Positions 10,504-54,959 of a stretch of 64,000 nt of DNA are shown here, in pieces. This DNA is from Aplectana chamaeleonis (Eukaryota > Nematoda > Chromadorea > Rhabditida > Cosmocercidae). The translations under genes were made by a program, and so were the position numbers. The stretch is from NCBI GenBank assembly GCA_029168955.1, contig JAPDOI010001524.1:1-64000 (forward strand), in the 5' to 3' direction. The notes beneath the pieces were generated by a model. The model was given only the letters and a program-made list of their open reading frames with translations. It was not told the origin of the DNA and made no database searches. Each line of letters opens with the position of its first letter. The first letter of the stretch is position 1.

Positions 10504-11272
10504 TGATGACGTCATCGGGATGTCGTGAAAAGTGCTTCAGTCTTCTGAAGACGTCATCGGGATGTCTTGAAAAGTGCTTAGGGCTTCTGATGACGTCATC
10601 GGGACGTCGTGAAAAGTGCCCCAGGCTTCTGATGACGTCATCGGGACGTCGTGGAAAGTGCTTAAGGCTTCTGATGACGTCATCGACACATCGTGAAAAG
10701 TGCCCCAGGCTTCTGATGACGTCATCGGGACGTCGTGAAAAGTGCTTCGGGCTTCTGGTAACGTCACTGGGATGTCGTGAAAAGTGTTTCAGGCTTCTGA
10801 AGACGTCATCGGGATGTCTTGAAAAGTGCTTAGGGCTTCTGATGACGTCATCGGGACGTCGTGAAAAGTGCCCCAGGCTTCTGATGACGTCATCGGGACG
10901 TCGTGGAAAGTGCTTAAGGCTTCTGATGACGTCATCGGGATGTCGTGAAAAGTGCCCCAGGCTTCTGGTGACTTCATCGGGACGTCGTGAAAAGTGCTTC
11001 GGGCTTCTGATGACGTCATCGTGACGTCGTGAAAAGTGCCCCAGGCTTCTGATAACGTCATCGGGACGTCGTGAAAAAAGCTTCGGGCTTCTGATGACGT
11101 CATCGGCACGTCGTGAAAAGTGCTTCGGGCTTCTGATGACGTCATCGTGACGTCGTGAAAAGTGGTTTGGGCTTCTGACGACGTCATCGGGACATCGTGA
11201 AAAGTGCCCCAGGCTCCTGGTGACGTCATCGGGACGTCGTGAAAAGTGCTTCGGGCTTCTGATAACGTCATC
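10504..11272. repeat. Higher-order duplication inside the 42-bp satellite, copy 2
   Basis: Partner of 8918-9690. It includes the rare GGTAACGTCACTGGG unit and the later GTGGTTTGGG, ACGACGTCATCGGGACATCG and CTCCTGGTGACG units in the same order. The offset is not a whole number of 42-bp units, because of small indels. Confidence 0.75.
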
Positions 11273-14200: not shown

Positions 14201-17200
14201 TGATGACGTCATCGGGACGTCATGAAAAGTGCTTCGGGCTTCTGATGACGTCATCGGGACATTCTGGAAAGTGCTACGGGCTTCTGATGACGTCATCGGG
14301 ACATCCTGAAAAGTGCTTCGGGCTTCTGATGACGTCATCGGGATGTCGTGAAAGTGCTTCAGGCTTCTGATGACGTCATCGGGACGTCGTGAAAAGTGCT
14401 TCGGGCTTCTGATGACGTCATCGGGACGTCGTGAAAAGTGCTTCAGGCTTCTGATGACGTCATCGGGATGTCGTGAAAAGTGCTTCAGGCTTCTGATGAC
14501 GTCATCGGGACGTCGTGAAAGTGCCCCAGGCTTCTGATGACGTCATCGGGACGTCGTGAAAAGTGCTTCAGGCTTCTGATGACGTCATCGGGACGTCGTG
14601 AAAAGTGCTTCGGGCTTCTGATGACGTCATCGGGACGTCGTGAAAAGTGCTTCCGGAGCTTCTGATGACGTCATCGGGACATCGTGAGAAGTGATTCAGG
14701 CTTTTTATGACGTTATCGTGACGTCGTGAAAAGTGCGTCGGGCTTCTGATGCCGTCACGGGGACGTCGGTAAAAGAGCCTCGGGCTTCTGATGACGTCAT
14801 CGAGACATCGTGAAAAGTGCTTCAGGATTCTGATGACGTCATCGAGACATCGTAAAGAGTGCTTCAGGCTTCTGGTGACGTCATGGGGACGTCGGAAGAT
14901 GTGCTTCGGGCTTCTGATGACGTCATCGGGACGTCATGAAAAGTGCTTCGGTCTTCTGATGACGTCATCGGGACATCGTGAAAAGTGCTTCAGGATTCTG
15001 ATGACGTCATCGGGACATCGTGAAAAGTGCTTCGGTCTTCTGATGCCGTCACGGGACGTCGGGAAAAGTGCTTCAGGCTTCTGATGACGTCATCGGGACG
15101 TCGTGAAAGTGCTTCAGGCTTCTGATGACGTCATCGGGACGTCGTGAAAAGTGCTTCAGGCTTCTGATGACGTCATCGGGACGTCGTGAAAAGTGCCCCA
15201 GGCTTCTGGTGACGTGATCGTGACGTCATGAAAAGTGCTTAGGGCTTCTGATGACGTCATCGGGACGTCGTGAAAAGTGCTTCAGGCTTCTGATGACGTC
15301 ATCGGCAGATCGTGAAAAGCGCCCCAGGCTTCTGATGACGTCATCGGGACGTCGTGGAAAGTGCTTAAGGCTTCTGATGACGTCATCGGGATGTCGTGAA
15401 AAGTGCTTCAGGCTTCTGAAGACGTCATCGGGATGTCGTGAAAAGTGCTTCGGGCTTCTGATGACGTCATCTAAAGGTCATGAAAAGTGCTTCGGGTTTC
15501 TGATGACGTCATCGGGACGTCGTGAAAAGTGCTTCGGGCTTCTGATGACGTCATCGTGACGTCGTGAAAAGTGGTTTGGGCTTCTGACGACGTCATCGGG
15601 ACGTCGTGAAAAGTGCTTCAGGCTTCTGATGACGTCATCGGGACGTCGTGAAAAGTGCTTCAGGCTTCTGATGACGTTATCGGGACGTCGTGAAAAGTGC
15701 TTCGGGCTTCTGACGAAGTCATCGGGATGTCGTGAGAAGTGCTTCAGGCTTCTGATGACGTCATCGGGATGTCGTGAAAAGTGCTTCAGGCTTCTGATGA
15801 CGTCATCGGGATGTCGTGAAAAGTGCTTCAGGCTTCTGAAGACGTCATCAGGATGTCGTGAAAAGTGCTTCAGGCTTCTGATGACGTCATCTGAACGTCC
15901 TGAAAAGTGCTTTGGGACGTCGTGAAAAGTGCTTCGGGCTTCTGATGACGTCATCGGGACGTCGTTAAAAGTGCTTCGGGCTTCTGATGACGTCATCGTG
16001 ACGTCGTGAAAAGTGGTTTGGGCTTCTGACGACGTCATCGGGACATCGTAAAAAGTGCCCCAGGCTTCTGGTGACGTCATCGGGACGTCGTGAAAGTGCT
16101 TCAGGCTTCTGATGACGTCATCGGGACGTCGTGAAAAGTGCTTCAGGCTTCTGATGACGTCATCGGGACGTCGTGAAAAGTGCTTCAGGCTTCTGATGAC
16201 GTCATCGGGACGTCGTGAAAGTGCTTCAGGCTTCTGATGACGTCATCGGGATGTCGTGAAAAGTGCTTCAGGCTTCTGATGACGTCATCGGGACGTCGTG
16301 AAAAGTGCTTCAGGCTTCTGATGACGTCATCCGGGACGTCGTGAAAAGTGCTTCGGGCTTCTGATGACGTCATCGGGACGTCGTGAAAAGTGCTTCCAGG
16401 CTTCTGATGACGTCATCGGGACGTCGTGAAAAGTGCTTCAGGCTTCTGATAACGTCATCGGGACGTCGTGAAAAGTGCTTCGGGCTTCTGATGACGTCAT
16501 CGGGATGTCGTGAAAAGTGCTTCAGGCTTCTGAAGACGTCATCGGGATGTCGTGAAAAGTGCTTCAGGCTTCTGAAGACGTCATCGGGATGTCGTAAAAA
16601 GTGCATCGGGCTTCTGATGACGTCATCGGGACATCGTGAAAAGTGCCCCAGGCTTCTGATGACGTCATCGGGACATCGTGAAAAGTGCCCCAGGCTTCTG
16701 ATGACGTCATCGTGACGTCGTGAAAAGTGCTTCTGGTTTCTGATGACGTCATCGGGACATCGTGAAAAGTGCTTTGGGCTTCTGATGACGTCATCGTGAC
16801 GTCGTGAAAAGTGCTTCTGGCTTCTGATGACGTCATCGGGACATCGTGAAAAGTGCTTTGGGCTTCTGATTACGTCATACCAATGTCGTGAAAAGTGATT
16901 CAGGCTTTTGATGACGACATCGGGACGTCGTGAAAAGTGCTTCCAGGCTTCTGATGACGTCATCGGGACGTCGTGAAAAGTGCTTCAGGCTTCTGATGAC
17001 GTCATCGGGACGTCGTGAAAAGTGCTTCAGGCTTCTGATGACGTCATCGGGACGTCGTGAAAAGTGCTTCAGGCTTCTGATGACGTCATCGGGATGTCGT
17101 GAAAAGTGCTTCCAGGCTTCTGAAGACGTCATCGGGATGTCGTGAAGAAAAAGTGCTTCAGGCTTCCAGAAGACGTCATCAGGGATGTCGTGAAAAGTGC

Positions 17201-20200
17201 TTCAGGCTTCTGATGACGTCATCGGGACGTCGTGAAAGTGCTTCAGGCTTCTGATGACGTCATCGGGATGTCGTGAAAAGTGCTTCAGGCTTCTGATGAC
17301 GTCATCGGGACGTCGTGAAAAGTGCTTGGGGCTTCTGTTGACGTCATCGGGATGTCGTGAAAAGTGCTTGGGGGTTCTGTTGACGTCATCGGGATGTCGT
17401 GGAAAGTGGTTCGGGCTTCTGATGAAGTCATCGGGACGTCGTGAAAAAGTGCTTCAGGCTTCTGATGACGTCATCGGGACGTCGTGAAAAGTGCTTCGGG
17501 CTTTTGATGAAGTCATCGGGACGTCGTGAAAATTGCTTCGGGCTTCTGATGAAGTCATCGGGACGTCGTGAAAAGTGCTTCAAGCTTCTATTGAAGTCAT
17601 CGGGACGTCGTGAAAAGTGCTTCAGGCTTCTATTGAAGTCATCGGGACGTCGTGAAAAGTGCTTCAGGCCTCTGATGACGTCATCGGGACGTCGCGAAAA
17701 GTGCTTCGGGCTTCTGATGAAGTCATCGGGATGTCGTGAAAGTGCTTCGCGCTTCTGATGACGTCATCGGGACGTCGTGAAAAATGCTTCAGGCTTCTGA
17801 AGACGTCATCGGGACGTCGTGAAAGTGCTTTGGGCTTCTGATGACGTCATCGGGATGTCGTGAAAAGTGCTTCAGGCTTCTGATGACGTCATCGGGACGT
17901 CGTGAAAAGTGCTTCAGGCTTCTGATGACGTCATCGGGACGTCGTGAAAAGTGCTTCAGGCTTCTGACGACGTCATCGGGACGTCGTGAAAAGTGCTTAA
18001 GGCTTCTGATGACGTCATCGGGACGTCGTGAAAGTGCCCCAGGCTTCTGATGACGTCATCAGGATGTCGTGAAAAGTGCTTTAGGCTTCTGAAGACGTCA
18101 TCGGGTTGTCGTGAAAAGTGCTTCAGGCTTCTGATAACGTCATCTGAACGTCCTGAAAAGTGCTTTGGGCTTCTGATGACGTCATCGGGACGACGTGAAA
18201 AGTGCTTCAGGCTTCTGGAGACGTCATCGGGACGTCGTGAAAAGTGCTTCAGGCTTCTGATGACGTCATCGGGACGACGTGAAAAGTGCTTCAGGCTTCT
18301 GATGACGTCATCAGGATGTCGTGAAAAGTGCTTCAGGCTTCTGAAGACGTCATCAGGATGTCGTGAAAGTGCTTCGGGCTTCTGATGACGTCATCGGGAC
18401 GTCGTGAAAAGTGCTTCGGACTTCTGATGACGTCATCGGGATGTCGTGAAAAGTGCTTCGGACTTCTGATGACGTCATCGGGACGTCGTGAAAAGTGCTT
18501 CGGGCTTCTGATGACGTCATCGGGACGTCGTGAAAAGTGCTTCAAACTCCTGATGACGTCATCGGGACGTCGTGAAAAATGCTTCGGACTTCTGATGACG
18601 TCATCGGGATGTCGTGAAAAGTGCTTCAGACTTCTGATGACGTCATCGGGACGTCGTGAAAAGTGCTTCGGGCTTCTGATGACATCATCGGGACGTCGTG
18701 AAAAATGCTTCGGGCTTCTGATGACGCCATTGGGACGTCGTGAAAAGTGCTTCAGGCTTCTGATGACTTTATCGGGACGTCGTGAAAAGTGCTTCAGGCT
18801 TCTGAAGACGTCATCGGGATATCGTGAAAAGTGCTTCGGGCTTCTGATGACTTCATGGGGACATGCTGAAAAGTGCTTCGGGGTTCTGATGACGTCATCG
18901 GGACGTCGTGAAAAGTGCTTCGGGCTTCTGATGACGTCATCGGGACGTAGTGAAAAGTGCTTCAGGCTTCTGATGACGTTATCGGGATGTCGTGCAAAGT
19001 GCTTCAGGCTTCTGATGACGTCATCGGGATGTCGTGAAAAGTGCCACAGGCTTCTGATGACGTCATCGGGACGTCGTGAAAAGTGCTTCAGGCTTCTGAT
19101 GACGTCATCGGGATGTCGTGAAAGTGCTTCAGGCTTCTGATGACGTCATCGGGATGTCGTGAAAAGTGCTTCAGGCTTCTGATGACGTCATCGGGATGTC
19201 GTGAAAAGTGCTTTGGGCTTCTGATGACGTCATCGGGATGTCGTGAAAAGTGCCCCAGGCTTCTAACGACGTCATCGGGACGTCGTGAAAAGTGCTTCAG
19301 GCTTCTGATGACGTCATCGGCAGATCGTGAAAAGTGCCCCAGGCTTCTGATGACGTCATCGGGATGTCGTGAAAAGTGCATTGGGCTTCTCATGACGTCA
19401 TCAGGATGTCGTGAAAAGTGCAATGGGCTTCTGATGACGTCATAAAGATGTCGTGAAAAGTGCTTCAGGCTTCTGAAGACGTCATCGGGATGTCGTGAAA
19501 AGTGCCCCAGGCTTCTGATGACGTCATCGGGACGTCGTGAAAAGTGCTTCAGGCTTCTGATGACGTCATCGGGATGTCGTGAAAAGTGCTTCAGGCTTCT
19601 GGAGACGTCATCGGGATGTCGTGAAAAGTGCATTGGGCTTCTGATGACGTCATCAGGATGTCGTGAAAAGTGCAATGGGCTTCTGATGACGTCATCAGGA
19701 TGTCGTGAAAAGTGCTTCAGGCTTCTGAAGACGTCATCGGGATGTCGTGAAAAGGGCTTCAGGCTTCTGATGACGTCATAAAGATGTCGTGAAAAGTGCT
19801 TCAGGCTTCTGAAGACGTCATCGGGATGTCGTGAAAAGTGCTTCAGGCTTCTGAAGACGTCATCAGGATGTCGTGAAAAGTGCTTCAGGCTTCTGAAGAC
19901 GTCATCGGGACGTCGTGAAAAGTGCTTCGGGCTTCTGATGACGTCATCGGGACGTCGTGAAAAGTGCTTCGGGCTTCTGATGACGTCATCGGGACGTCGT
20001 GAAAAGTGCTTCGGGCTTCTGATGACGTCATCGGGACGTCGTGAAAAGTGCGTCGGGCTTCTGATGACGTCATCTGAACGTCCTGAAAAGTGCTTTGGGC
20101 TTCTGATGACGTCATCGGGACGACGTGAAAAGTGCTTCAGGCTTCTGGAGACGTCATCGGGATGTCGTGAAAAGTGCATTGGGCTTCTGATGACGTCATC

Positions 20201-23200
20201 GGCAGATCGTGAAAAAAGCCCCAGGCTTCTGATGACGTCATCGGGACGTCAAGGAAAGTGCTTCAGGCTTCTGATGACGTCATCGGGACGTCGTGAAAAG
20301 TGCCCCAGGCTTCTAACGACGTCATCGGGACGTCGTGGAAAGTGCTTAAGGCTTCTGATGACGTCATCGGGATGACGTGAAAAGTGATTCAGGCTTCTGG
20401 AGACGTCATCGGGATGTCGTGAAAAGTGCTTCAGGCTTCTGAAGACGTCATCAGGATGTCGTGAAAAGTGCTTCAGGCTTCTGAAGACGTCATCGGGATG
20501 TCGTGAAAAGTGCTTCAGGCTTCTGAAGACGTCATCAGGATGTCGTGAAAAGTGCTTCAGGCTTCTGAAGACGTCATCGAGACGTCGTGAAAAGTGCGTC
20601 GGGCTTCTGATGACGTCATCTGAACGTCGTGAAAAGTGCTTTGGGCTTCTGATGACGTCATCGGGACGTCGTGAAAAGTGCTTCGGGCTTCTGATGACGT
20701 CATCGGGATGTCGTGAAAAGTGCTTCAGGCTTCTGAAGACGTCATCGGGATGTCTTGAAAAGTGCTTAGGGCTTCTGATGACGTCATCGGGACGTCGTGA
20801 AAAGTGCCCAAGGCTTCTGATGACGTCATCGGGACGTCGTGGAAAGTGCTTAAGGCTTCTGATGACGTCATCGACACATCGTGAAAAGTGCCCCAGGCTT
20901 CTGATGACGTCATCGGGACGTCGTGAAAAGTGCTTCGGGCTTCTGGAGACGTCATCGAGACGTCGTGAAAAGTGCGTCGGGCTTCTGATGACGTCATCTG
21001 AACGTCGTGAAAAGTGCTTAGGGCTTCTGATGACGTCATCGGGACGTCGTGAAAAGTGCCCCAGGCTTCTGATGACGTCATCGGGACGTCGTGCAAAGTG
21101 CTTAAGGCTTCTGATGACGTCATCGACACATCGTGAAAAGTGCCACAGGCTTCTGATGACGTCATCGGGACGTCGTGGAAAGTGCTTCGGGCTTCTGATG
21201 ACGTCATCGGGATGTCGTGAAAAGTGCTTCAGGCTTCTGGAGACGTCATCGGGATGTCGTGAAAAGTGCATTGGGCTTCTGATGACGTCATCAGGATGTC
21301 GTGAAAAGTGCTTCGGGCTTCTGATGACGTCATCGGGACGTCGTTAAAAGTGCTTCGGGCTTCTGATGACGTCATCGTGACGTCGTGAAAAGTGGTTTGG
21401 GCTTCTGACGACGTCATCGGGACATCGTGAAAAGTGCCCCAGGCTTCTAACGACGTCATCGGGACGTCGTGAAAAGTGCTTCAGGCTTCTGATGACGTCA
21501 TCGGCAGATCGTGAAAAGTGCCCCAGGCTTCTGATGACGTCATCGGGACGTCGTGGAAAGTGCTTCAGGCTTCTGATGACGTCATCGGCAGATCTAGAAA
21601 AGTGCCCCAGGCTTCTGATGACGTCATCGGGACGTCGTGGAAAGTGCTTCAGGCTTCTGATGACGTCATCGACACATCGTGAAAAGTGCCCCAGGCTTCT
21701 GATAACGTCATCGGGATGTCGTGAAAAGTGCTTCAGGCTTCTGAAGACGTCATCGGGATGTCGTGAAAAGTGCATTGGGCTTCTGATGACGTCATCAGGA
21801 TGTCGTGAAAAGTGCTTCAGGCTTCTGAAACGTCATCGGGATGTCGTGAAAAGTGCATTGGGCTTCTGATGACGTCATCAGGATGTCGTGAAAAGTGCTT
21901 CAGGCTTCTGAAGACGTCATCGGGATGTCGTGAAAAGTGCTTCAGGCTTCTGAAGACGTCATCAGGATGTCGTGAAAAGTGCTTCAGGCTTCTGAAGACG
22001 TCATCGAGACGTCGTGAAAAGTGCGTCGGGCTTCTGATGACGTCATCTGAACGTCGTGAAAAGTGCTTTGGGCTTCTGATGACGTCATCGGGACGTCGTG
22101 AAAAGTGCTTCGGGCTTCTGATGACGTCATCGGGACGTCGTTAAAAGTGCTTCGGGCTTCTGATGACGTCATCGTGACGTCGTGAAAAGTGCTTAGGGCT
22201 TCTGATGACGTCATCGGGACGTCGTGAAAAGTGCCCCAGGCTTCTAACGACGTCATCGGGACGTCGTGAAAAGTGCTTCAGGCTTCTGATGACGTCATCA
22301 GCAGATCGTGAAAAGTGCCCCAGGCTTCTGATGACGTCATCGGGACGTCGTGAAAAGTGCTTCGGGCTTCTGATGACGTCATCGGGACGTCGTTAAAAGT
22401 GCTTCGGGCTTCTGATGGCGTCATCGTGACGTCGTGAAAAGTGCTTAGGGCTTCTGATGACGTCATCGGGACGTCGTGAAAAGTGCCCCAGGCTTCTAAC
22501 GACGTCATCGGGACGTCGTGAAAAGTGCTTCAGGCTTCTGATGACGTCATCGGCAGATCGTGAAAAGTGCCCCAGGCTTCTGATGACGTCATCGGGACGT
22601 CGTGGAAAGTGCTTCAGGCTTCTGATGACGTCATCGACACATCGTGAAAAGTGCCCCAGGCTTCTGATAACGTCATCGGGATGTCGTGAAAAGTGCTTCA
22701 GGCTTCTGGAGACGTCATCTGAACGTCCTGAAAAGTGCTTTGGGCTTCTGATGACGTCATCAGGATATCGTGAAAAGTGCTTCAGGCTTCTGAAACGTCA
22801 TCGGGATGTCGTGAAAAGTGCATTGGGCTTCTCATGACGTCATCAGGATGTCGTGAAAAGTGCTTCAGGCTTCTGAAGACGTCATCGGGATGTCGTGAAA
22901 AGTGCTTCAGGCTTCTGAAGACGTCATCGGGATGTCGTAAAAAGTGCTTCGGGCTTCTGATGACGTGATCGGGACGTCGTGAAAAGTGCTTCGGGCTTCT
23001 GATGACGTCATCGGGACGTCCTGAAAAGTGCTTCGGGCTTCTGATAACGTCATCGGGATGTCGTGAAAAGTGTTTCAGGCTTCTCATGACGTCATCAGGA
23101 TGTCGTGAAAAGTGCTTCAGGCTTCTGAAGACGTCATCGGGATGTCGTGAAAAGTGCTTCAGGCTTCTGAAGATGTCATCAGGATGTCGTGAAAAGTGCA

Positions 23201-24863
23201 ATGGGCTTCTGATGACGTCATAAAGATGTCGTGAAAAGTGCTTCAGGCTTCTGAAGACGTCATCGGGATGTCGTGAAAAGTGCTTCAGGCTTCTGAAGAC
23301 GTCATCAGGATGTCGTGAAAAGTGCTTCAGGCTTCTGAAGACGTCATCCGGATGTCGTGAAAAGTGCTTCAGGCTTCTGAAGACGTCATCGGGATGTCGT
23401 AAAAAGTGCTTCGGGCTTCTGAAGACGTCATCAGGATGTCGTGAAAAGTGCTTTAGGCTTCTGAAGACGTCATCGGGTTGTCGTGAAAAGTGCTTCAGGC
23501 TTCTGATAACGTCATCGGGATGTCGTGAAAAGTGCTTCAGGCTTCTGAAGACGTCATCAGGATGTCGTGAAAAGTGCAATGGGCTTCTGATGACGTCATA
23601 AGGATGTCGTGAAAAGTGCTTCAGGCTTCTGAAGACGTCATCGGGATGTCGTGAAAAGGGCTTCAGGCTTCTGATGACGTCATCGGGATGTCGTGAAAAG
23701 TGCATCCGGCTTCCGAAGGGGTCATCGGGATGTCGTGAAAGTGCTTTGGGCTTCTGATGACGTCATCGGGACGACGTGAAAAGTGCTTCAGGCTTCTGGA
23801 GACGTCATCGGGATGTCGTGAAAAGTGCAATGGGCTTCTGATGACGTCATCAGGATGTCGTGAAAAGTGCTTCAGGCTTCTGAAGACGTCATCGGGATGT
23901 CGTGAAAAGTGCTTCAGGCTTCTGAAGACGTCATCAGGATGTCGTGAAAAGTGCTTCAGGCTTCTGAAGACGTCATCGGGATGTCGTGAAAAGTGCTTCA
24001 GGCTTCTGAAGACGTCATCAGGATGTCGTGAAAAGTGCTTCAGGCTTCTGAAGACGAAATCGGGATGTCGTGAAAAGTGCTTCAGGCTTCTGAAGACGTC
24101 ATCAGGATGTCGTGAAAAGTGCTTCAGGCTTCTGATGACGTCATCGGGATGTCGTGAAAAGTGCATTGGGCTTCTGATGACGTCATCGGCAGATCGTGAA
24201 AAAAGCCCCAGGCTTCTGATGACGTCATCGGGACGTCAAGGAAAGTGCTTCAGGCTTCTGATGACGTCATCGGGATGTCGTGAAAAGTGTTTCAGGCTTC
24301 TCAAGACGTCATCGGGATGTCGTGAAAACTGCATCGGGCTTCCGAAGACGTCATCGGGATGTCGTGAGAGTGCATTGGGCTTCTGATGACGCCATCGGGA
24401 TGTCGTGAAAAGTGCTTCAGGCTTCTGAAGACGTCATCTGAACGTCGTGAAAAGTGCTTTGGGCTTCTGATGACGTCATCGGGACGTCGTGAAAAGTGCT
24501 TCGGGCTTCTGATGACGTCATCGGGACGTCGTTAAAAGTGCTTCGGGCTTCTGATGACGTCATCGGGACGTCGTGAAAAGTGCCCCAGGCTTCTGATGAC
24601 GTCATCGGGACGTCGTGGAAAGTGCTTAAGGCTTCTGATGACGTCATCGGGATGTCGTGAAAAGTGCTTCAGGCTTCTGGAGACGTCATCGGGATGTCGT
24701 GAAAAGTGCATTGGGCTTCTGATGACGTCATCGGCAGATCGTGAAAAAAGCCCCAGGCTTCTGATGACGTCATCGGGACGTCAAGGAAAGTGCTTAAGGC
24801 TTCTGATGACGTCATCGACACATCGTGAAAAGTGCCCCAGGCTTCTGATGACGTCGTCGGGAC

Positions 24864-25163
24864 CAGGGATGAGCGGAATAAAAATATGAAATTTCGGAAA
24901 TCGGTTTTCGGGTTTCGGAACAAAAAAAAAATTTCTCGGGTTTCGAAAATCGGGCGCGAAACGCCTGAAAATGCGCGGAAATGCGGTTTTCGGAACGCGA
25001 AACGCGGAAAAATTCAAAAATCACCTAGTGTTTTCTTACGTCCCGGATGACCCGATATTTTCGCATTCCGCAACGTTTTCTGCGGTTTTCGGAACGCGGA
25101 ATGCCAAAATTGCGCGAAACTGCGGGTTTCGGAACGCGAAACGCGGAACTCCGCTCATCCCTG
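24864..25163. mobile_element. 300-bp hAT-type miniature element inserted in the satellite
   Basis: The ends are an exact 13-bp inverted pair, CAGGGATGAGCGG and CCGCTCATCCCTG. The flanks are GTCGGGAC (24856-24863) and ATCGGGAC (25164-25171), an 8-bp direct repeat with one mismatch. CAGGG termini and 8-bp duplications are typical of the hAT superfamily. The interior is made of GAACGCGAAACGC-like and TTTCGGAA-like words, with inner inverted symmetry and no coding frame. Satellite units continue on both sides, so the satellite predates the insertion. Because the target is a repeat unit, part of the 8-bp match is expected; the clean TIRs carry most of the weight. Confidence 0.85.
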
Positions 25164-25317
25164 ATCGGGACGTCGTGAAAAGTGCTCCGGGCTTCTGATA
25201 ATGTCATAGGGACGTCGTGAAAAGTGCCCCGGGCTTCTGATGACGTCATCGGGACATCGTTAAATGTGCATCGGGCTTCAAGTGACGTCTGTCTTCAAGA
25301 CGTCGTGGAAAGTGCAT

Positions 25318-25490
25318 AGCGGTTCATGTAGTATGTGCGTAGTGCCGCGAAATGTGAGTAGCGATTCATTTGTAGCGTGCTTCTCAAGTTGATTGCTTAC
25401 TGATTATCGCATCAGTCCAAAAAGGTTGATAAGTTTTGGATTTTTTTTTCAGGGATATTACTGCGTAATATCAGGAAAAAAGTGAACAAT
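25318..25490. other. Spacer with a small palindrome
   Basis: Non-repetitive sequence after the satellite. GATATTAC and GTAATATC form a short hairpin at about 25454-25472. Nothing else is recognised. Confidence 0.4.
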
Positions 25491-26099
25491 TCTATCCAAA
25501 AGGGGTCTTCCAAGCAAAAGAGGTTTGGTTCGCGTCAGAAACTTTTCAACAAAAAGGGAACAATAGGAAAGTGAAGTGAGGGGAGTGTACAAAAAGTGAA
25601 CAATATTTTCTCCGAGCGATATTCTCGGTCGACTCTTCTATACAGCGAAAACAAACCGTTGCGGTATTTCACGAGGAAGAGCATAATGGTTAAAAAAAGA
25701 CTTTTATTCGTTTACGAGATTATATTGGAATACTCTTGCTTGATGTTGTATCTCAATTGTTTCATTTTTCCCAAGAGCTGGAGCTAACCGTCTGCTCTGG
25801 CCAGGTTGACATCATCTCTTTCAATGAAAACTTCAATGAAACTGATGAACTACATGTACATTTTTAACGGTTCTCCCATGATCGGAGTTATTTTTGAAAC
25901 CACAAAAGTACTTCCGAGTAGAATACCGCAACGATTTGTTTTCGCTGTATAGAAGAGTCGACCGAGAATATCGCTAGGAGAAAATATTGGTCACTTTTTG
26001 TACACTCCCCTCACTTCACTTTCCTATTGTTCCTTTTTTGTTGAAACGTTTCCGACGCAAACCAAACCTCTTTTGCTTGGAAGACCCCTTTTGGATAGA
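25491..26099. mobile_element. Foldback element with ~175-bp inverted arms
   Basis: The left arm 25491-25664 (starting TCTATCCAAAAGGGGTCTTCC, including AGGAAAGTGAAGTGAGGGGAG and GTCGACTCTTCTATACAGCG) is matched in reverse complement by 25921-26099. The spacer is about 255 bp. A few substitutions and small indels separate the arms, so it is not recent. No target duplication is clear and no protein-like frame is present. The spacer frame at 25596-25787 (RSTLLYSENKPLRYF...) lies partly in the arm and is probably incidental. Confidence 0.85.
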
Positions 26100-27689: not shown

Positions 27690-28948
27690 TCCGCTCTCGC
27701 CACGTATGGACGCTGCCTCAAGGAAGTGTAATGACAGGTCTTGATTTCTCCTTTGGGGACCAGGGACTCTAGCATACGAAAAACCGTTCATTCTCAGGAA
27801 CACTTTGCGAGTGAAATTTTCTTTTGTCCTTTCCAAAAATTGAATATCTCTCTTTTATACGGACTGAATACTGAAATCATCTAACATATAACTTGATACG
27901 CACGCGATAATACATTTTTGTTACAAGTTGACAAGGCTTTGAAAATATGAAATGTGCGCACTGAAGCTCTGTTACAAATAGCATGATAATGAGCTGAGAA
28001 ATCAAGTTCATTATCATAGTGGAAACCTAAAACCTTCACATGGGAAACACATGTTAGTGGGTGGCCATCGAGCACGTAAGTGACCGGAGTACTGGGAACT
28101 CCCATTCTTATGTGAACCGTTTTCTCAGGGGCGTCAATTAGTAAAGAATTCAATACGTCTTTCTGTCTTCATATAACTTGTCAGAACCAAGCGGCTTTCA
28201 ATTTAGCGATTCCATCCTATTTAGATTGGATCCGACTCACTCATTTCTGAATATCCATCCAAATGAACCGAAATTTTCATGCTTCAAAATCAGATTCACC
28301 GAAAAAACGTGAAAATCCGAGAGATCCTGAATCCGAATCACCGAAAAAACGTCAAAATCCGACTGATCCAAATTCCGAATCACCGAAAAAACGTAATTTT
28401 CGGATTGATCCGAGATCCAAATATCCGTTTAGCCTCTCTCTCCGATTCACTCGGATTATCCGATGTTGTTATTTTGAATCTATCTATTTGAGTCGTATAT
28501 CCACGACCCTTGATTTTTGAGTTATCCGAAATCCGAGTATCCGAAATTTTTTGATTCGGATCCAATGTATACTATTTAGCCAAGTCTAATAAACGATTCG
28601 AATGGGCATTTCTTCTATATATCGCTTCTTCCAATTCTAGCTTGAGACCGGCGGGTGGCAAATTTCAACATTTAGACCAGTCAAGTATCCTTTCCAGAGC
28701 GGCCTGAACATTTTCGACATCAACGATCGACTCTATTTTGTTATATATTTTCACATCATCGGTGAGTCGTTTACAGACCACTCCAGTATCTTCGAAAAAA
28801 ATGGGAAGTTCAGCTGTGTAGACATAGAATAAAATGGGCGACAGAACACCTCCTTGTGGTACCCCGCTACTGACTAACCTGCTGGATCAAAACATGATGA
28901 TGAGCATCTATTTCGCTTCGAAATTCATGGACCAGTCGAGCGTTGGAC
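27690..28948 (-). pseudogene. Broken LINE (non-LTR) reverse transcriptase, interrupted by two elements
   Basis: Read on the minus strand, 28874-28808 encodes VSSGVPQGGVLSPILFYVYT, the conserved RT block before the catalytic site. LTDDVKIYNKIESIVDVENV then stands where YADD-type LINEs have their catalytic aspartates, followed by ERILDWSK. At 28153-27881 comes a later block, VTYVLDGHPLTCVSHVKVLG then FSAHYHAICNRAS, typical of CR1/jockey-like C-terminal RT regions. Minus-strand 27836-27690 continues with ERTKENFTRKVF and RRNQDLSLHFLE, like the 'VQRRFTRR ... L.SLE.RR' end of such proteins. In-frame stops and frameshifts make it non-functional. It is split by a miniature element at 28225-28571 and cut at 28948 by the 6.4-kb hAT-like element. 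Confidence 0.85.
28225..28571. mobile_element. 347-bp miniature element inserted in the LINE
   Basis: ATTGGATCCGA at the left is inverted as TCGGATCCAAT near the right, and CTATTTAG flanks both sides (28217-28224 and 28572-28579). The uninterrupted site is present at 35814-35821 in a second LINE fragment, which confirms the boundaries. The interior has about three ~40-bp tandem repeats around GAATCACCGAAAAAACGT, AAATCCGA words, and no coding capacity. The 8-bp duplication suits hAT, but the termini are not the usual CAG type. Confidence 0.85.
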
Positions 28949-29567
28949 CAGGGCTGGGCACGCGTCCCGGGTAACCTTAGGGGGGTGCATATTAGACGTT
29001 GCAGAGAGGGCAAAGGAGGGTGCCTAAACCGAACACCAAAAAAAGAACGAAGTGCATTTTTTGTCGAATTTCAGGAAAAAATAGTACGCACTATTCTTCA
29101 AATTTGTCATATCTTCTTCCCCGCTTCTTGAGTTGAACACGAAAAGAATTCAAATTATTGATAGAGATGCAGGTTGTGTTCGCAATAATTCATAGTTGCT
29201 GTCAAGGTTTGTTTCGATGAAGGATTAAACACTACTCTGTTATCTTGTAGCAAGTAAGGATTGATGTGGTGTCATGTTTCTTTGATGCAACGTTCATTGA
29301 TTACGCGGGTGGCTACCGATTCGAGGCAAAGATACTAAGACAGCGCCCAGAAAAGCTATCGTTCAAGTTCAAAAAAAAAAAGATTGGCGAACTCATGTTT
29401 AGCCTAGGTCGCTCATTTTGGGCCGGTCGAAGCTAGGCTTATTGAGCTTATCATGTCAAAGTCTCCTTATCACTGTTCTATTTTGCCATGACCGACCGCT
29501 CCGCTGCTTACTCCGCCCGGACTCATCCGAGCAGGCTAGGCTTTATTTCGACAGTTTAAAAGTACAG

Positions 29568-30199
29568 ATTCCTGAAAGTTTAGGTTCCTGGCAAAAGTAA
29601 AGATTTGGCATGGCCATAGAAATATACTCAGTTAAAAAGGGAAGATAAAGAAAAATGAAAAAAGGTTTTGAAATATTCCTGAGAACGATTTGGCGTAGAA
29701 TAATTTGTTTTTCGGGAAATGAAGTGAAATAGTTTAAAGTATGATTTGGCAGTCCAGTTTGAACAAACTATTGATAAGAGTTGTGCAAAACGAGAGATCG
29801 CATTGTCTGTGCTTCTCCGTAGAACATATCGAAGCGAAATCACGCGTGTTGATTTTACTTCACCTAATACGTGAAGACCGCGGCACTACAGCTCCCGAAA
29901 GTTTCGATGCTTCCCATTTCACGCGTGATTTCGCTTTGATATGTTCTACGGATAAGCACAGACAAGGCGATCTCTCGTTCTGCACAACTCTTATCAATAG
30001 TTGGTTCAAACTCGACTGCCAATTCATACTTTAAACTATTTCACTTCATTTCCCGAAAAACAAATTATTCTACGCCAAATCGTTCTCAGGAATATTTCAA
30101 ACCTTTTTTCATTTTTCTTTATCTTCCCTTTTTAAATGAGTATATTTCTATGGCCATGCCAAATCTTTACTTTTGCCAGGAACCTAAACTTTCAGGAAT
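29568..30199. mobile_element. 632-bp foldback element, family member 1
   Basis: The arms of ~280 bp are near-identical inverted copies: 29568-29845, starting ATTCCTGAAAGTTTAGGTTC, and 29920-30199, ending in its complement. The spacer is about 75 bp. Marker words are TTTGGCGTAGAATAATTTG and AAATGAAGTGAAATAGTTTA. A diverged member with the same word order lies at 53890-54404. Plus-strand sequence just right of each member is also similar (CCGAAAGGTTTCCTTTCT vs CCTGAAGGTTCCCTTTCT), so the family may be longer than the foldback. Confidence 0.88.
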
Positions 30200-30239
30200 T
30201 TCATTTATTTTTCCGAAAGGTTTCCTTTCTAACATGATT

Positions 30240-33200
30240 TATGTCTGGTGGTGTTAGATGAAAGTAAACCCACTGATGTCCTGCCCCCTTCTGTGACGTC
30301 CTGCACTCCAACTGATGGCCTGCACACTTTATTTGACGTCCTGCACACTCCCACTAGTGTCCTGCACCCTTCCACTGATGTCATACACACTTTCTATGAG
30401 ATGCTGCACACTCCCACTATAGTTCTGCACGCTCCCACTGATGTCCTGCACACTTTCTATGTCATCCTGCGCACTCCCACGAATGTCCTGCGCACATTCT
30501 GTTACATCTTGCACGCTCCCACTGATGTCCTACACACTTTCTACGGCGTTCTGCGCACACCCATTTGAGTCCGGCACTTTCTACGGTGTCCAACGCACTC
30601 TTATTTGGGTTTCACACACTTTCTACGGCGTTCTGCGTACACCCATTTGGGTCACAAGCACGCTCACGCCGATCATTTTTCCGCAGGGCTACCGTAACCC
30701 TCCTCAAAAATTTTTCTGAGTGTCAGCTTGGATATAAGCACATCGTAATAGCCAACAAACGCGTTTGCACAATTTCGGACCTCCTCAGCCACTTCCCGGC
30801 GGCTTCTCGAAGAGAACGGTGTGTGAATGAATGCATACCGCTCCTCTGCCCTTTTATACCCCGCATGTTATGAGCGTGTGTTATCATTCGTTATCATGTT
30901 TTGCTCAAGAATGGTTACGGTAGCCCTGCGGAAAAAATGATCGGCATGGGCGTGCTTCTATTTGGGTCCCGCACACTTCCTACGGCGTCTTGCGCACTTT
31001 CACTTTGTCACCGCACACTTTCTACGGCGTCCGGCGCACTCTCATTTGGGTCCCGCACACTTTCTACGGCGTTCTGCGCACGCCCATTTGGGTCCCGCAC
31101 GCTTTCTACGGCGTCCGGCGCACTTCCACGTGGGTCCCGCACACTTTCTACGGCGTCCGGCGCACTCCCACTTGAGTCCCGCACACTTTCTACGGCGTCC
31201 GACACACTCTTATTTGGGCCCCGCACACTTTCTACGGCGTCCGGCGCACTCCCACTTGAGTCCCGCACACTTTCTACGGCGTCCGACACACTCACATTTG
31301 GGTCCCACACACTTTCTAGGGCGTTCTGCGAACACCCATTTGGGTCCCGCACACTTTCTACGGCGTCCGGCGCACTCCCACTAGGGTCGCGCACACTTTC
31401 TACTGCGTCAGGCGCACTCCCACGTGGGTCCCGCACACTTTCTACGGCGTTCTGCGCACACCCATTTGGGTTCGCATACTTTCTACGGCGTCCGGCGCAC
31501 TCTCATTTGGGTCCCGCACACTTTCTAGGGCGTTCTGCGCACACCCATTTGGGTCCTGCACACTTTCTACGGCGTCCGGCGCACTCCCGCTTGGGTCCCG
31601 CACACCTTCTACGGCGTTCTGCGCACACCCTTTGGGTCCCGCACACTTTCTAGGGCGTCCGACGCTCTCTCATTTGGGTCCCGCTCACTTTCTACTGCGT
31701 CCGGCGCACTCTTATTTGGGTCCCACACACTTTCTGGGCGTTCTGCGTACACCCTTTTGGGTCCCGCACACTTTCTTACGGCGTCCGGCGCACTCCCACT
31801 AGGGTCGCGCACACTTTCTACGGCGTCCGACACACTCTCATTTGGGTCCCGCACACTTTCTACGGCGCCCGGCGCACTCTCATTTGGGTCCCGCACACTG
31901 TCTACGGCGTCCGGCGCACTCTCATTTGGGTTCCACACACTTTCTAGAGCATTTTGTGCACACCCATTTGGGTCCCGCACACTTTCTACGGCATCCGGCG
32001 CACTCTCATTTGGGTCCCACACACTTTCTGGGGGCGTTCTGCGCACACCCATTTGGGTCCGCACACTTTCTGCGGCGTCCGGCGCACTCCCACTTGGGTC
32101 CCGCACACTTTCTACGGCTTTCCGCGCACACCCATTTGGGTCCCGCACACTTTCTACGGCGTTCTGCGCACACCCATTTGGGTCCCGCATACCTTCTACG
32201 GCGTCCGGCGCCTCTTCCCACTAGGGTCGCGCACACTTCCTACAGCGTCAGGCGCACTCCACGTGGGTCCCGCATACTTTCTACGGCGTCCGGCGCACTC
32301 TCAGTTGGGTCCCGCACACTTTCTAGGGCGTTCTGCGCACACCCATTTGGGTCCCGCACACTTTCTACGGCGTCCGGCGCACTCCCACTTGGGTCCCGCT
32401 CACTTTCTACTGCGTCCGGCGCACCCTTATTTGGGTCCCACACACTTTCTAGGGCGTTCTGCGCACACCCATTTGGGTCCCGCACACTTTCTACGGCGTC
32501 CGGCGCACTCCCACTAGGGTCGCGCACACTTTCTACGGCGTCCGGCGCACTCCCACGTGGGTCCCGCACACTTTCTATGGCGTCCGGCGCACTCTCATTT
32601 GGGTCCCGCACACTGTCTACGGCGTCCGGCGCACTCTCATTTGGGTTCCACACACTTTCTAGAGCATTTTGTGCACACCCATTTGGGTCCCGCACACTTT
32701 CTACGGCGTCCGGCGCACTCTAATTCGGGTCCCACACACTTTCTAGGGCGTTCTGCGCACACCCATTTGGGTCCCGCACACTTTCTGCGGCGTCCGGCGC
32801 ACTCCCAATTGGGTCCCGCACACTTTCTACGGCTTTCCGCGCACACCCATTTGGGTCCCGCACACTTTCTACGGCGTTCTGCGCACACCCATTTGGGCCC
32901 CGCACACTTTCTACGGCGTCCGGCGCACTCCCACTTAGGTCCCGCACTTTTTCTACTGCGTTCTGCGCACACCCATTTGGGTCCCACACACTTTCTACGG
33001 CGTTCTGCGCACACCCATTTGGGTGCCACACACTTTCTACATCGTCCGGCGCACTCCACTTGGGTCCCGCCCTCTTTCTCCGGCGTTCTGCGCACACCCA
33101 TTTCGGTCCCACACACTTTCTAGGGCGTTCTGCGCACACCCATTTGGGTCCCGCACACTTTCTACGGCGTCCGGCGCACTCCAACTTGGGTCCCGAACAC

Positions 33201-33300
33201 TTTCTACGGCGTTCTGCGCACACACGTTTGGGTCCCACACTTTCTACGGCGTCTTTCGCACTCCTGCTGGGGTCCCGCACACTATCTACGGCGTTCTGTG
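30240..33300. repeat. 42-bp minisatellite built from two 21-bp halves
   Basis: The regular unit is GTCCCGCACACTTTCTACGGC (21 bp) plus a second 21-bp half, either GTCCGGCGCACTCCCACTTGG or the variant GTTCTGCGCACACCCATTTGG. The halves resemble each other, pointing to a 21-bp ancestor. The left part (30260-30560) is made of diverged ~21-bp monomers with GATGTCCTGCACAC cores; the right part (30960-33300) is regular 42-bp. The period being a multiple of three leaves frames open on both strands, giving Leu/Arg/Ala/Ser-rich pseudo-proteins up to 293 codons. These are not genes. The array lies wholly inside the hAT-like composite. Confidence 0.95.
30654..30959. mobile_element. 306-bp TIR element inserted in the minisatellite
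   Basis: Left AAGCACGCTCACGCCGATC and TTTTTCCGCAGGGCTACCG are matched in reverse complement at the right end by CGGTAGCCCTGCGGAAAAA and GATCGGCATGGGCGTGCTT. Terminal symmetry is about 45 bp with a few mismatches. ATTTGGGTC flanks both sides (30645-30653 and 30960-30968). Because the target is a tandem repeat containing that word, the apparent 9-bp duplication is only suggestive; 9-bp duplications would fit a Mutator-like element. The interior is unique and non-coding. Confidence 0.75.
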
Positions 33301-34023
33301 GCGCACTTCTGAGTCACAGCGTGCGGCGTTCCAAAAAGTACTTCCGAGATCCCGCCGTATTGATTGAAGCGTTGCCCCGTCAAATCCTGAACAAAAGCCT
33401 ATCAGTAACGGTGTTTATTTCACTAGTTCATTTTTACGAATGAGTAAACATCGGATGGTTTATAATAACATGTTTACGTGTTTCTGTCTTTCCTGACCCT
33501 CGATTTTGGGGTTCCACAAAAACTGAGCTACAAACTTCAAAATTTGACAAGAGCTAGGTGCAATCATAACCAACTTTCTGGCCAAAAATCAGCTTCTTAG
33601 CTCAACTATAAGTGTTCCAACAAGATCGTGAACGCCAACTGAAAAAAAAGGAGATGAACATTATTTCGACCAAAATGACGTGGTTTTGACACTTTTTCTC
33701 GAATCTCAGGTTACCATTCCGGACCATTTTTGAACAGTTATTCAGCTTTCTAAAGTATACTAACTGCAAGAAGAACTGTCTTCCTACGTTTACTCTGGAC
33801 CCTGATACTGAGATCAGGGGTTGCGCGATGGCGAATCAAAGCCAAATCTGGTGAGCGCTTCGCGCTCACCACAATAGCACAGTCAGCATCACAACTAGTC
33901 AATAGATTTTTATTCATGAGAATGTTTCTAATGAAGAGAGCCAATTGTAAAAATTGAAGACTGCAAGTTACAATGAAAGAAGCAAATGACCGTTTCCTCC
34001 TCATTGAGAAGTGCCCTGATCAT
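33301..34023. repeat. Dispersed repeat K, copy 1 (about 33480-33900)
   Basis: The order CCAACAAGATCGTG, a poly-A word, a CACTTTTT...TC block, CCATTTTTG, then CCAAATCTGGTG followed by GCGCTTCGCGC and CACCACAAT matches 54960-55520. The GGTGAGCGCTTCGCGCTCACC segment (33849-33869) is a small perfect hairpin. K copy 1 keeps the uninterrupted site (GATCGTGAACGCC) for the 151-bp hairpin in copy 2. No coding capacity. 33301-33480 has no recognised content. Confidence 0.55.
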
Positions 34024-34907
34024 AAAAACCCGAGTTTTATCCACCTTGAATGCCGCAATCTCTCATAGACTAGGCTAGCCGTGCGATCTGGTGTTTGTCC
34101 GCAGCTACACAACGCGCACTGGAGTGGACGCGCACGCAATATTAATTAAAAAATGTATTTTATTACAGAACGGGGCGGAGAAAATGATTGAAACTGAAGT
34201 AAATGGTAGCAGGCAGAAATAGGATTCTTTCAATGTATACAGTATAGAAATTTAATGTAAACAAACTTAGTTGGAGCGGAGTGAATTTTTTGGACGTGTT
34301 AAGGTTCATTCAAATGAACCTAGTTGATTAAAAACACCAATAAACATAGAACTAAGAGCATTGCGAGAAAGAGGAGAATCTGGCAAACATTTCAATGGCA
34401 ATAGGTTTGATATTCAATGTGATTTAAGGACCTTTAAACTCGTCCCGGTTTTGTCCCGGTTTTGTCCCGGTTTTCGGGGTAAAACCGGGACGAGATTTAA
34501 GGTCCTTAAATCACATTAAAAACCGGTCCCATTGATGCTAAAGTGTTTGCCAGATTCTCCTCTTTCTCACAATGTCCTTTGCTCTCAGTTTAATCCTAGT
34601 TTTAATCAACTAGGTTCTTTTGAATGAACCTTATCACGGCTAAATATTTACACCCGCTCTAACTTTGTTTATTTACATTAAATTTCTAAAGTGGGTACAT
34701 CCAGAATAGACTACCTTTACCATCTTCTATTTCCTTCAGTTTCAATCCTTTTCTCCTCTCCGTTCTGTAATAAAATACATTTTTTATTAATATTGTGTAA
34801 GCGTCCATTCCTGTGTGCGCTGTGTAGCTGCGTACAAACACCGTATCGCACGGCAAGCCGATTTTTTAAGGGATAGCGGCATTCTAGGAGGGTAAAACTC
34901 GGGTTTT
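34024..34907. mobile_element. 884-bp foldback element, almost wholly palindromic
   Basis: The left arm starts AAAACCCGAGTTTTA at 34024 and the right arm ends with its complement at 34907. Each arm is about 430 bp, with inner matched blocks such as TGTATTTTATTACAGAACGG and AACCTAGTTGATTAAAA. The centre (about 34430-34510) pairs AAGGACC / GGTCCTT and holds three direct TGTCCCGGTTT repeats. Arms differ by many point changes, so it is old. No target duplication is obvious. It lies inside the hAT-like composite. Confidence 0.88.
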
Positions 34908-35354
34908 CTACTCCCTACGAATCACATGAATCCTAACATTGTTCCACAACACAAAATAGTCCTGATTTCCACATCAGAACAATCAAACACAGATTAACTA
35001 ATCCTTCATAGGTTTATGAAAACATTCGACAGAGAACATTAATTATCGCAATAGTAGTAGTTCTGTTGTTGGTAATTGTTCAATTGTTTTGTATTGAAAA
35101 ATGTTTTATCTTTTGTAATAACTTACCGTCTTACTACCAAATTTCTTTTGTTGCCATTTTCGGAATTTTCTCTAATCAGTGCTTTTTTATATTCTTGTTT
35201 ATCAAAATCAGGAAGTCAAGATCATGGCTGTCCAACTATTCGGAAAACAGCCGATTTCGATGTCCCATAAGGGGGTGGCTAAAAATTACCGAGCTAAGGG
35301 GGGTGCATATTCATAATCGCCATGCCGGGACGTGTGCCCAGCCCTGCGTTGGAC

Positions 35355-45503: not shown

Positions 45504-45507
45504 TTAA

Positions 45508-45992
45508 AGGCAGTGTTCACGATGATTTTCGTTCCTGAGTTTTCCACTCAAAACGATGGTTTGGTCACCAAGAATTACCAAAATTATGAAGAAACGGCGA
45601 GAAACGCACTAAAACGCTTTATTTCAGTTAGATTATTTCCTGGTCTGGACTAGTTGTCCGGTTGTATGATCATGTTATCGGTGGTTGTCACGGGTGAAAA
45701 ATGGGGTTAATCGGAAACGGAAGAACATTTTTTTGCAAAACAGTATTAGTTAGGGTGCGAAGCAAAGAACTGAGCAGCAGTAAGTGAAGAATTTCAGTGC
45801 ACGGACCCACAAGAGATTTCAGTGCCACCACAAACAGTTCCAGTGAGAGTAAAAAGGCGGGGTGAGAGTAAAGGATTTCGTGCCCTTCTGATGCGCTTTT
45901 CTCGATTTCTTCGTCATTTCAGTTCTGCCCGGAGGCAAAACAATCGATTTATCCATTTATCTCAAAATTGAAGATTATCGTGAACACTGCCT
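45508..45992 (-). mobile_element. TTAA-flanked family A element, copy 1
   Basis: 485 bp between TTAA at 45504-45507 and 45993-45996, with ends AGGCAGTGTTCACGATGATT and AATCTTCAATTTTGAG-type subterminus then ATCGTGAACACTGCCT inverted. It is tandem with copy 2 in the same orientation and opposite to copies 3 and 4 (52108-53157, 56578-57059). Diagnostic words: GAGTTTTCCACTCAAAACGA, GTGAGAGTAAA and AACAATCGAT. It lies in the PLE reverse transcriptase. Confidence 0.88.
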
Positions 45993-45996
45993 TTAA

Positions 45997-46480
45997 AGGC
46001 AGTGTTCTCGATGATTTTCGTTCCCGAGTTTTCCACTCAAAACAATGCGTTGGCAACCAAGTGTTGCGAAAAATACGAAGAAACGGCGGGAAACGAACTA
46101 AAACGTCTTATTTCAGTGACATTATTCCCTGTCCTCGACTAGTTGTCCGATTGGATGAACATGTAACCGATGGTTGCCACTGGTGAAAAATGGGGCTAAT
46201 CAAAAATGGAAAAATATTTTAGGCATAACAGTACTAGTTAGGGTCCGAAGGAAAGAGCGGAGCAACAGAGAGTAGCGAGTTGCAAAAGACGGGTCCACAA
46301 AAGATTTCATTGTCACAACGAACAGTTCCAGTGAGAGTAAAAAGGTGGGGTGAGAGTAAAGGATTTGGTGCCCTTCTGGGCCGTTTTTCTCGATTTCTTC
46401 GTCATTTCAGTTCTACCCAGGTGCCAAACAATCGATGTAGCAAATAATTTAAAAATTGAAGATTATCGTGAACACTGCCT
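45997..46480 (-). mobile_element. TTAA-flanked family A element, copy 2
   Basis: 484 bp, directly following copy 1 and sharing the TTAA at 45993-45996; the right TTAA at 46481-46484 is shared with element B1. It is similar to copy 1 throughout (GAAGAAACGGCGGGAAACG, GTTCCAGTGAGAGTAAAAAG), with substitutions showing that the two are independent copies and not a very recent duplication. Confidence 0.88.
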
Positions 46481-46484
46481 TTAA

Positions 46485-46945
46485 AGGCAGCATACACGCT
46501 CGTAAACGTGATTGAGATAACTATGGAAATAGAGTGGTATGGCCCAGATTACAACGCCTACTCATTTTGAAGTGTCAAAACCGACCCACAATGCCGCTAC
46601 ATGAGTTAGAAGTTGGCTCCGCCCTGTATTCTCACGCCCCCTGTATTTGTCCTTTTCCTGCAACGCAAGGTTGCTGGGTCATATTCACCGGTGGTACTGT
46701 TGGTAGATTGCCTAACAAGTGAACCACACACGTCACTGTCGTCGAAGATGACCCAACAACCCTTCGTTGGACGAAAAGGGCAAATACAGGGGGCGTGAAA
46801 ATACAGGGCGGGGCCAACTTCTAACTCATGTAGCGGCATGGTGGGTCGTTTTTCACACTTCAAATTGCGTAGGCATTATGTTGTAAGCCATACGGCTCGA
46901 TTCACGTTGTTATCCCAACCACGTTTACGAGCGTGTATGCTGCCT
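46485..46945. mobile_element. TTAA-flanked foldback element, family B, copy 1
   Basis: The ends AGGCAGCATACACGCTCGTA and its inverted form bound 461 bp. Flanks are TTAA at 46481-46484 and TTAG at 46946-46949. Most of the element is an inverted repeat with arms of about 180 bp (CATGAGTTAGAAGTTGG, GGGGGCGTGA and AACAACC words) and a ~60-bp centre with ATTGCCTAACAAGTGAACC. Both strands therefore give the same pseudo-peptide (PLHELEVG...HAPCICPF), which is not a gene. Confidence 0.88.
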
Positions 46946-53824: not shown

Positions 53825-53889
53825 GTCTCGCGCTTGCGAGCGCAAACCTCTAGCGGAGCGATCGACTCTTCCTTTCTCGAAAGTCGATT

Positions 53890-54404: not shown

Positions 54405-54519
54405 CATGTCACATAATTTTCCTGAAGGTTCCCTTTCTGACTTCAATTTTGCTCAACGATTTCCATTTCGGTTTGATGAAACATCCAACAGACGATATTG
54501 TCCTATGAGTACAATTTTT

Positions 54520-54830: not shown

Positions 54831-54959
54831 GACGTGTCACGAGTACGAATTCTGACAAAAACAGTAATTACCTCCGACGGCTTGTGGTAATTGGCTGCAG
54901 ATTCACCCACACACTACGGTCTCCACAGCCGTAGCAGAAAAAGCAGTTTTCGGGCTCCA

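Follow-up and report, generated by a model that had tools for sequence, protein, structure and literature searches.

A 42-bp minisatellite in a putative rolling-circle element nested within a hAT-type transposon of Aplectana chamaeleonis

Transposons of the hAT superfamily create an 8-bp target site duplication (TSD) and end in short terminal inverted repeats (TIRs) of the CAGNG type. Canonical Helitrons, by a rule quoted in PMC4067079, insert between A and T without a TSD. Helentrons and HINE elements are described as having subterminal inverted repeats, central tandem repeats, a 3′ palindrome, no TSD, and a TT target (PMC4067079; PMC7492417), and tandem repeats have been described in Helentrons of flies and oyster (PMC7492417; PMC9659126). 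These and the other papers named by PMC number are represented here by excerpts. We examined positions 28941–35354 of a 64,000-nucleotide window (the whole stretch of DNA analyzed: positions 1 to 64,000 of contig JAPDOI010001524.1, forward strand, assembly GCA_029168955.1) from the nematode Aplectana chamaeleonis. The original prediction held that this region is one 6398-bp hAT-like insertion that carries a minisatellite. Our analysis instead favors, with a probability of roughly 0.93, two nested insertions from two successive transposition events between positions 28949 and 35346. The outer insertion is a 2092-bp hAT-type element, and the inner one is a separate 4306-bp element that contains the minisatellite.

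Two nested sets of ends

The outer element occupies 28949–29568 (left part) and 33875–35346 (right part) on the plus strand and is bounded by two exact copies of the 8-bp sequence CGTTGGAC (28941–28948 and 35347–35354). Its left tip, CAGGGCTGGGCAC, lies at 28949, and the complement of CAGGGCTGGGCAC ends at 35346. The 22-bp TIRs (28949–28970 and 35325–35346; CAGGGCTGGG) are 95% identical to each other, and a subterminal repeat, CTTAGGGGGGTGCATATT, is present at 28976–28993. The right part contains an 883-bp foldback (34025–34907) that is a property of the hAT family.

All genome searches covered the window's own genome (1.04 Gb, 2087 contigs), and the candidate counts given are lower bounds. 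Queries covering 302 bp at the left end and 300 bp at the right end of the outer element each gave 40 scored matches including the window, the best of at least 2143 and at least 2125 candidates, respectively. The 39 scored matches to the left part other than the window copy are 95%–97% identical. Both ends are high copy across the genome and are not a product of chance.

When 60 fetched end-loci were aligned to the window, nearly all were found to join 28949–29569 directly to 33874, with the dinucleotide AT shared. This join is crossed in one match by 52 of the 60, and the uninterrupted site reads ACAGA↓TAGCA (the arrow marks the point of insertion). The eight exceptions include the window's own ends (L001 and L031); the other six (L018, L035, L041, L054, L055, and L058) are broken elsewhere or too short to contain the join, and a longer stretch of L054 does cross it. 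Full copies with both ends among the listed matches (n = 8) are 2069–2092 bp long, and other measured copies are 1748 bp and 3330 bp. Perfect 8-bp TSDs flank all nine copies compared at both ends, and the target consensus is approximately GYYSSRAC (55 distinct ends). Because the TSDs are perfect in every copy compared in this way, the comparison supports classification of the outer element as a hAT-type, non-autonomous unit bounded by TIRs and TSDs.

Ten open reading frames (ORFs) were tested against Pfam: five from hAT copy L062, which has 18 ORFs of 45 aa or longer, and five from the inner element, two of which overlap. None gave a match above the cut-off, and the best of the weak matches had an E value of 0.0066. 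No transposase was seen in the five ORFs from L062, and no search was aimed at hAT transposases or an autonomous partner. Like non-autonomous hAT elements, the outer element has an 8-bp TSD, a short TIR starting with CAGGG, no coding found, and a high copy number. Unlike typical members of this group, it is 2.09 kb long, contains a long internal foldback, and has the target consensus given above.

The inner element, here called family B, spans 29569–33874 on the plus strand and is inserted between A and T without a TSD; its ends are ambiguous by 1 bp. It begins with a long inverted repeat (29569–30199) composed of two 280-bp arms (29569–29848 and 29920–30199) and a 71-bp spacer. A subterminal inverted repeat, AGATTTGGC, is located at 29601–29609 (position 33 of the element). 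A 69-bp link (30200–30268) leads from the palindrome to 42-bp minisatellite B (30269–33294), which has a 21-bp half-period. This array is diverged at 30269–30655 and homogeneous at 30958–33294, and between these parts is a 302-bp block (30656–30957) with inverted ends of ∼45 bp. The 3′ tail (33295–33840) has no ORF of at least 100 aa wholly inside it. The 3′ end (33841–33874) consists of a subterminal repeat, GCCAAATCT (33841–33849), a hairpin, GGTGAGCGCTTCGCGCTCACC (33850–33870), and the nucleotides ACAA.

Much of the original prediction therefore stands: the termini and exact 8-bp flanks are real, the minisatellite and both foldbacks lie where they were placed, no transposase is visible among the 10 ORFs tested, and the element with the outer ends is hAT-like and non-autonomous. 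What changes is the assignment of the parts. The proposed 6398 bp resolve into 2092 bp of hAT and a separate 4306-bp insertion, and of the two foldbacks only the second is part of the hAT family; the inner element contains the first, together with the entire minisatellite. A genome search with the element ends, suggested at that time, recovered many copies, and the nine compared at both ends have 8-bp duplications; a look for the minisatellite in other hAT copies found that most of those seen are 2.09 kb and lack it.

The inner element belongs to a genome-wide family of its own. Its 5′ 332 bp gave 40 scored matches, the best of at least 2100 candidates, and its 3′ 576 bp gave 40, the best of at least 2698; the 39 other copies in each set are 96%–99% and 92%–97% identical, respectively. 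Of the 40 scored copies, counting the window, 38 have the inverted partner beside the 5′ arm, and one of these partners is partial. Four copies chosen from the best matches, not at random (L066–L069), all have the order foldback, 69-bp link (97% identical in L066–L068, 89% in L069), diverged array, 302-bp block, homogeneous array. The tail and hairpin are reached in three of the four, as the L068 stretch ends before them. A fifth other copy, from a distant lineage, is located on C71 inside another hAT copy at another site. It shares the B array and the 3′ hairpin, and its right palindrome arm is interrupted by a different, "family A" element that contains another type of 42-bp array. A 42-bp array is present in the window copy and in all five other fetched copies, and array length, blocks included, ranges from ∼0.8 kb to >3.8 kb. 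In two further family B matches, L072 (C21) and L076 (C14), the 25-base 5′ flanks are identical, which could reflect a segmental duplication or an uncollapsed haplotype.

Wherever the ends of the 302-bp block were found (window, L066, L067, L068, and L069), the block has the same array phase. This shared phase indicates that the block is one old event that was later duplicated with the array, and a late miniature inverted-repeat transposable element in the window copy alone was rejected on this ground. Coding use of the frames that run through the array was also rejected, as the frames tried gave no Pfam match above the cut-off. L068 carries the block five times in one array, as a higher-order repeat whose last block is truncated where the stretch ends.

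The ends of family B are TT(C/T)CTGAAA (TTCCTGAAA or TTTCTGAAA) on the 5′ side and CACCACAA on the 3′ side. Among 20 further 5′ ends fetched, eight are inner arm ends and 12 are outer ends with 11 distinct flanks. An A precedes the TTC tip in all 12, and also the 5′ tip in the seven other copies read (the window copy, a distant relative at 53888–55495 of the window, C71, and L066–L069). All 20 further 3′ ends consist of GGTGAGCGCTTCGCGCTCACC and ACAA followed by T, where the query finished in the flanking T and could bias the result by at most 1 base; T also follows in five of six other copies. No duplication is present at two sites with a known empty state, both within hAT sequence: the window site given above and GA↓TT in C71. 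A subterminal inverted repeat of 9–10 bp lies 32–33 bases from the 5′ end and 25–26 bases from the 3′ end in five of six copies, a length that shuffled ends give in only 1–5 of 300 trials. In C71, this repeat is altered at both ends together (AGGATTTGGC).

The boundaries, the two copy families, the insertion between A and T, and the arrangement of parts within those copies that were read were observed directly, and they are consistent with a two-step history. A non-autonomous 2.09-kb hAT-type element would first have inserted by cut-and-paste, with an 8-bp duplication, beside a fragment of reverse transcriptase from a long interspersed nuclear element (LINE). Later, a non-autonomous rolling-circle element (Helitron-like, HINE-type) would have entered the hAT interior between A and T with no duplication, bringing its own 5′ palindrome, minisatellite, and 3′ hairpin. 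A trans-acting Rep/helicase, genes for which are present in the genome, would nick the inner element and unwind it from the 5′ end to the 3′ hairpin. Array length might change by slippage or unequal exchange. The predicted insertion into a LINE holds in part: the left flank matches RVT_1 (E = 2.7e-5, under the Pfam cut-off), but no open frame reads across the joined flanks. Rfam gave nothing at gathering scores within the window.

Class of the inner element

The inner element probably belongs to the non-autonomous rolling-circle class. Within that class it is best described, from its sequence and the excerpts consulted, as a putative non-canonical Helitron-like element outside any named family that resembles the HINE type by structure. 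It is filed in this way because it departs from canonical Helitrons in its termini and from Helentrons and HINE elements in its target.

Like canonical Helitrons, family B inserts between A and T (A in 12/12 ends, T in 20/20, with L069 the exception) without a TSD and has a 3′ hairpin (PMC4067079). Like HINE/DINE-1, which are non-autonomous Helentrons, it combines subterminal inverted repeats (in five of six copies; the sixth, 53888–55495, shows no exact match) and a 3′ palindrome with central tandem repeats (the window and five other copies) and no TSD (PMC4067079; PMC7492417). The 5′ TT and insertion between A and T are shared with the proto-Helentron of Phytophthora; the two differ in that family B ends with ACAA rather than CTAG and has no coding found (PMC4067079). 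Non-canonical FoHeli Helitrons of Fusarium likewise have inverted repeats at both ends and multiple 5′ termini, which are explained by self-insertion, but their end sequences and target differ from those of family B (PMC5148889). Two family B copies, L121 (C243) and L122 (C887), are comparable in that family B has integrated into its own 5′ subterminal repeat (AAAGA↓TTTGGC) to give two tandem 5′ ends.

Candidate sources of a trans-acting protein are present. The Helitron N-terminal domain PF14214 has 42 matches in the genome from 44 candidates, several of them in open frames of 966–3351 aa. One Rep/helicase protein that was examined is 74% identical to a protein of Nippostrongylus brasiliensis, and its next matches are from Haemonchus (61%–62%) and Galendromus (a mite entry, 62%), followed by Ancylostoma and Necator. 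Judged by this one transposon protein, the host would probably be a nematode of strongylid type, although genes of this kind can be exchanged among species. One of six 3-kb stretches downstream of Rep/helicase genes contains an inserted family A 5′ end.

Several observations weigh against a nested rolling-circle element. Its ends, TT(C/T)CTGAAA and ACAA, are not the 5′ TC and 3′ CTRR of canonical Helitrons, and its 21-nt hairpin ends 4 nt before the element end, whereas canonical Helitrons have a 16- to 20-nt palindrome ∼11 bp from the 3′ end. The TT preference of Helentrons and HINE elements is replaced by A and T. Further differences from HINE/DINE-1 are the 280-bp 5′ arms, compared with a 7- to 12-bp inverted repeat, the 42-bp unit (the oyster study selected monomers of 100–500 bp), and the position of the hairpin. 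The 3′ end of L069 is CACCACA followed by G instead of T, and the copy at 53888–55495 has neither an exact subterminal repeat nor a 42-bp array. No family B ends were found in the six downstream stretches mentioned above, which possibly do not extend as far as the 3′ end. Finally, hAT copies on C815 (L054, L131) and C459 (L055) share an internal segment joined at 33928. The shared segments are 96.6% alike across 1.8 kb, and the right flanks of the two copies are different. Given an internal LINE at an identical position in both, composites of this hAT may be able to move; no movement was seen for the composite in the window.

If the nested reading is true, then a further question is whether family B is a genuine Helentron/HINE that has shifted its target from TT to AT. 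The subterminal inverted repeats, the inverted partner in the left part, the central tandem repeats, the 3′ palindrome, and the lack of a TSD would all fit such an origin (PMC4067079; PMC7492417). Against it are the target between A and T and the fact that no Helentron-type Rep/Hel/endonuclease partner was identified. We regard this placement as possible but doubtful.

Alternative explanations

The foldback at 29569–30199 could be a separate foldback or miniature element, with the array and tail forming a second insertion. A complete 5′ tip next to an A is found at the end of its right arm too, which is what an inverted insertion would produce, and family B has inserted into its own 5′ end at two places (L121 and L122). 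Such self-insertion may have been the original source of the palindrome. However, the window copy, L066, L067, and L069 each contain foldback, array, and tail; C71 combines foldback and array with the same hairpin, and L068 has both foldback and array. A homologous arrangement is present in the distant copy at 53888–55495, and the link accompanies all four foldbacks of the nonrandom sample. We consider a separate foldback improbable.

The history of the palindrome is reflected in its arms, which are 87.7%–99.3% identical within one copy and 52%–62% identical between lineages (window type, C71, and 53888–55495). Columns changed alike in both arms number 90, versus nine changed in one arm or mixed, of 212 between the window and C71, and 70 versus 29 of 214 between the window and 53888–55495; these alignments of distant arms carry uncertainty, and the C71 sequence used is a reconstruction of the arm from the parts on either side of its insert. 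The corresponding values are 14 versus 20 of 264 for L069 and 0 versus nine of 279 for L066. This pattern suggests either that the arms correct each other or that the palindrome is remade in each lineage. Arm 1 of the window is 97.1% identical to arm 2 and 97.1%–99.6% identical to the arms of other copies in its subfamily, whereas the arms of L069 are 95.0% alike versus 89.4%–91.3% to those of other copies. Since the arms of the window subfamily are no closer to each other than to the arms of other copies, any arm-to-arm correction is slow.

The proposal that a 6.4-kb hAT-type vehicle moves as a unit with the minisatellite as cargo gains from the intact TIRs and the perfect TSD around the whole, and the C815 and C459 copies offer a precedent. 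The C815 copy is 5980 bp long with a perfect TSD, GCCCCAAT, and contains a unit with minus-strand open frames of 891 and 334 aa. This unit appears LINE-like, a label that rests on a reading of its protein sequence; a 127-aa piece of it gave no Pfam match above the cut-off. From the right flanks compared, either the hAT element moved with the LINE or the LINE struck the same site twice.

In the window copy, the inner part is bounded by ends of its own and belongs to a separate family, and most hAT copies seen lack the array. The 20-base left junction of the composite occurs exactly once in the genome, in the window. With up to two mismatches there are 54 matches, versus four for a reversed control pattern; this search would not detect a composite that departs from the pattern at more than two positions. 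None of 12 fetched from the 53 looser matches has a hAT flank (best, 19/40 bases); eight resemble family-B-type ends elsewhere and four are weak matches. Because the junction was found only once and these 12 lack the flank, there is no sign that hAT moved this array, and movement as a unit is very improbable. The idea that a small hAT element swelled after insertion by local tandem amplification can be practically set aside: array length does differ among copies, so arrays change size, but palindrome, link, 302-bp block, and array recur in the same order in four copies at unrelated sites. Thus, neither the cargo vehicle nor the swollen element that the original prediction had offered is supported for this copy, whose array came in a second mobile element and is dispersed with that element's family.

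Further elements in the window and the possible dispersal of minisatellites

Two further elements with a 5′ inverted repeat and a 3′ hairpin lie elsewhere in the window. A probable giant family A element occupies 7601–26092 on the minus strand, with its ends inferred by comparison with L065 only. It has a 5′ inverted repeat at ∼25452–26092, a 42-bp array at ∼25279–7991, and a 3′ hairpin at 7601–7623. The 17-kb 42-bp minisatellite of the window appears to lie in this family A element of ∼18.5 kb. A 3.6-kb relative is nested in L065. The second, a distant family-B-like element (53888–55495, plus strand), has a 5′ inverted repeat at 53888–54407, a 3′ hairpin nearly the same as that of family B, and A and T flanks; three repeats spaced 109 and 119 bp replace the 42-bp array. 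The best cyclic alignment of minisatellites A and B was reached by 3/300 and 2/300 shuffles, and the two may be related.

Other arrays of similar period were observed. Periods of 41–42 bp recur in unrelated sequence, in four of 25 tandem arrays among 87,000 flanking bases (L015, L017, L019, and L041), and further arrays of this kind in the window include 4–1521 and 28285–28394. L061 (C1369) contains, from ∼966 of the reverse strand, a hAT copy with a different element that starts after an A with TCCTTATACTTAAAGC. The 5′ end of this element resembles that of a canonical Helitron, a 42-bp array with homology to minisatellite B comes next, and the element sits within ∼10 bp of the LINE site of the C815 and C459 copies (33928). 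The window also has two tandem copies of a 488-bp unit (45504–46490; 83% matches).

We tentatively suggest that family A, family B, and the 53888–55495 element could be branches of one rolling-circle lineage with a long self-homogenizing 5′ palindrome, and with a 42-bp satellite in A and B. The palindrome might function in the transposition cycle, and such elements might seed genome minisatellites, including the 17-kb array. As far as literature searches show, a long 5′ palindrome whose arms are alike within a copy, a 42-bp unit, and a target between A and T are new for such an element; no published description of this architecture was found among the titles and abstract openings searched, with subscription literature mostly outside the search.

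Recognition of the nesting removes a false 6.4-kb hAT element. Should the 5′ palindrome turn out to be essential, it would represent a type of terminal structure new to rolling-circle transposons. The minisatellite gains a vehicle: it is inherited as a component of a mobile family and is not a chance local product, and the dispersal of this satellite in a large genome can therefore be traced copy by copy.

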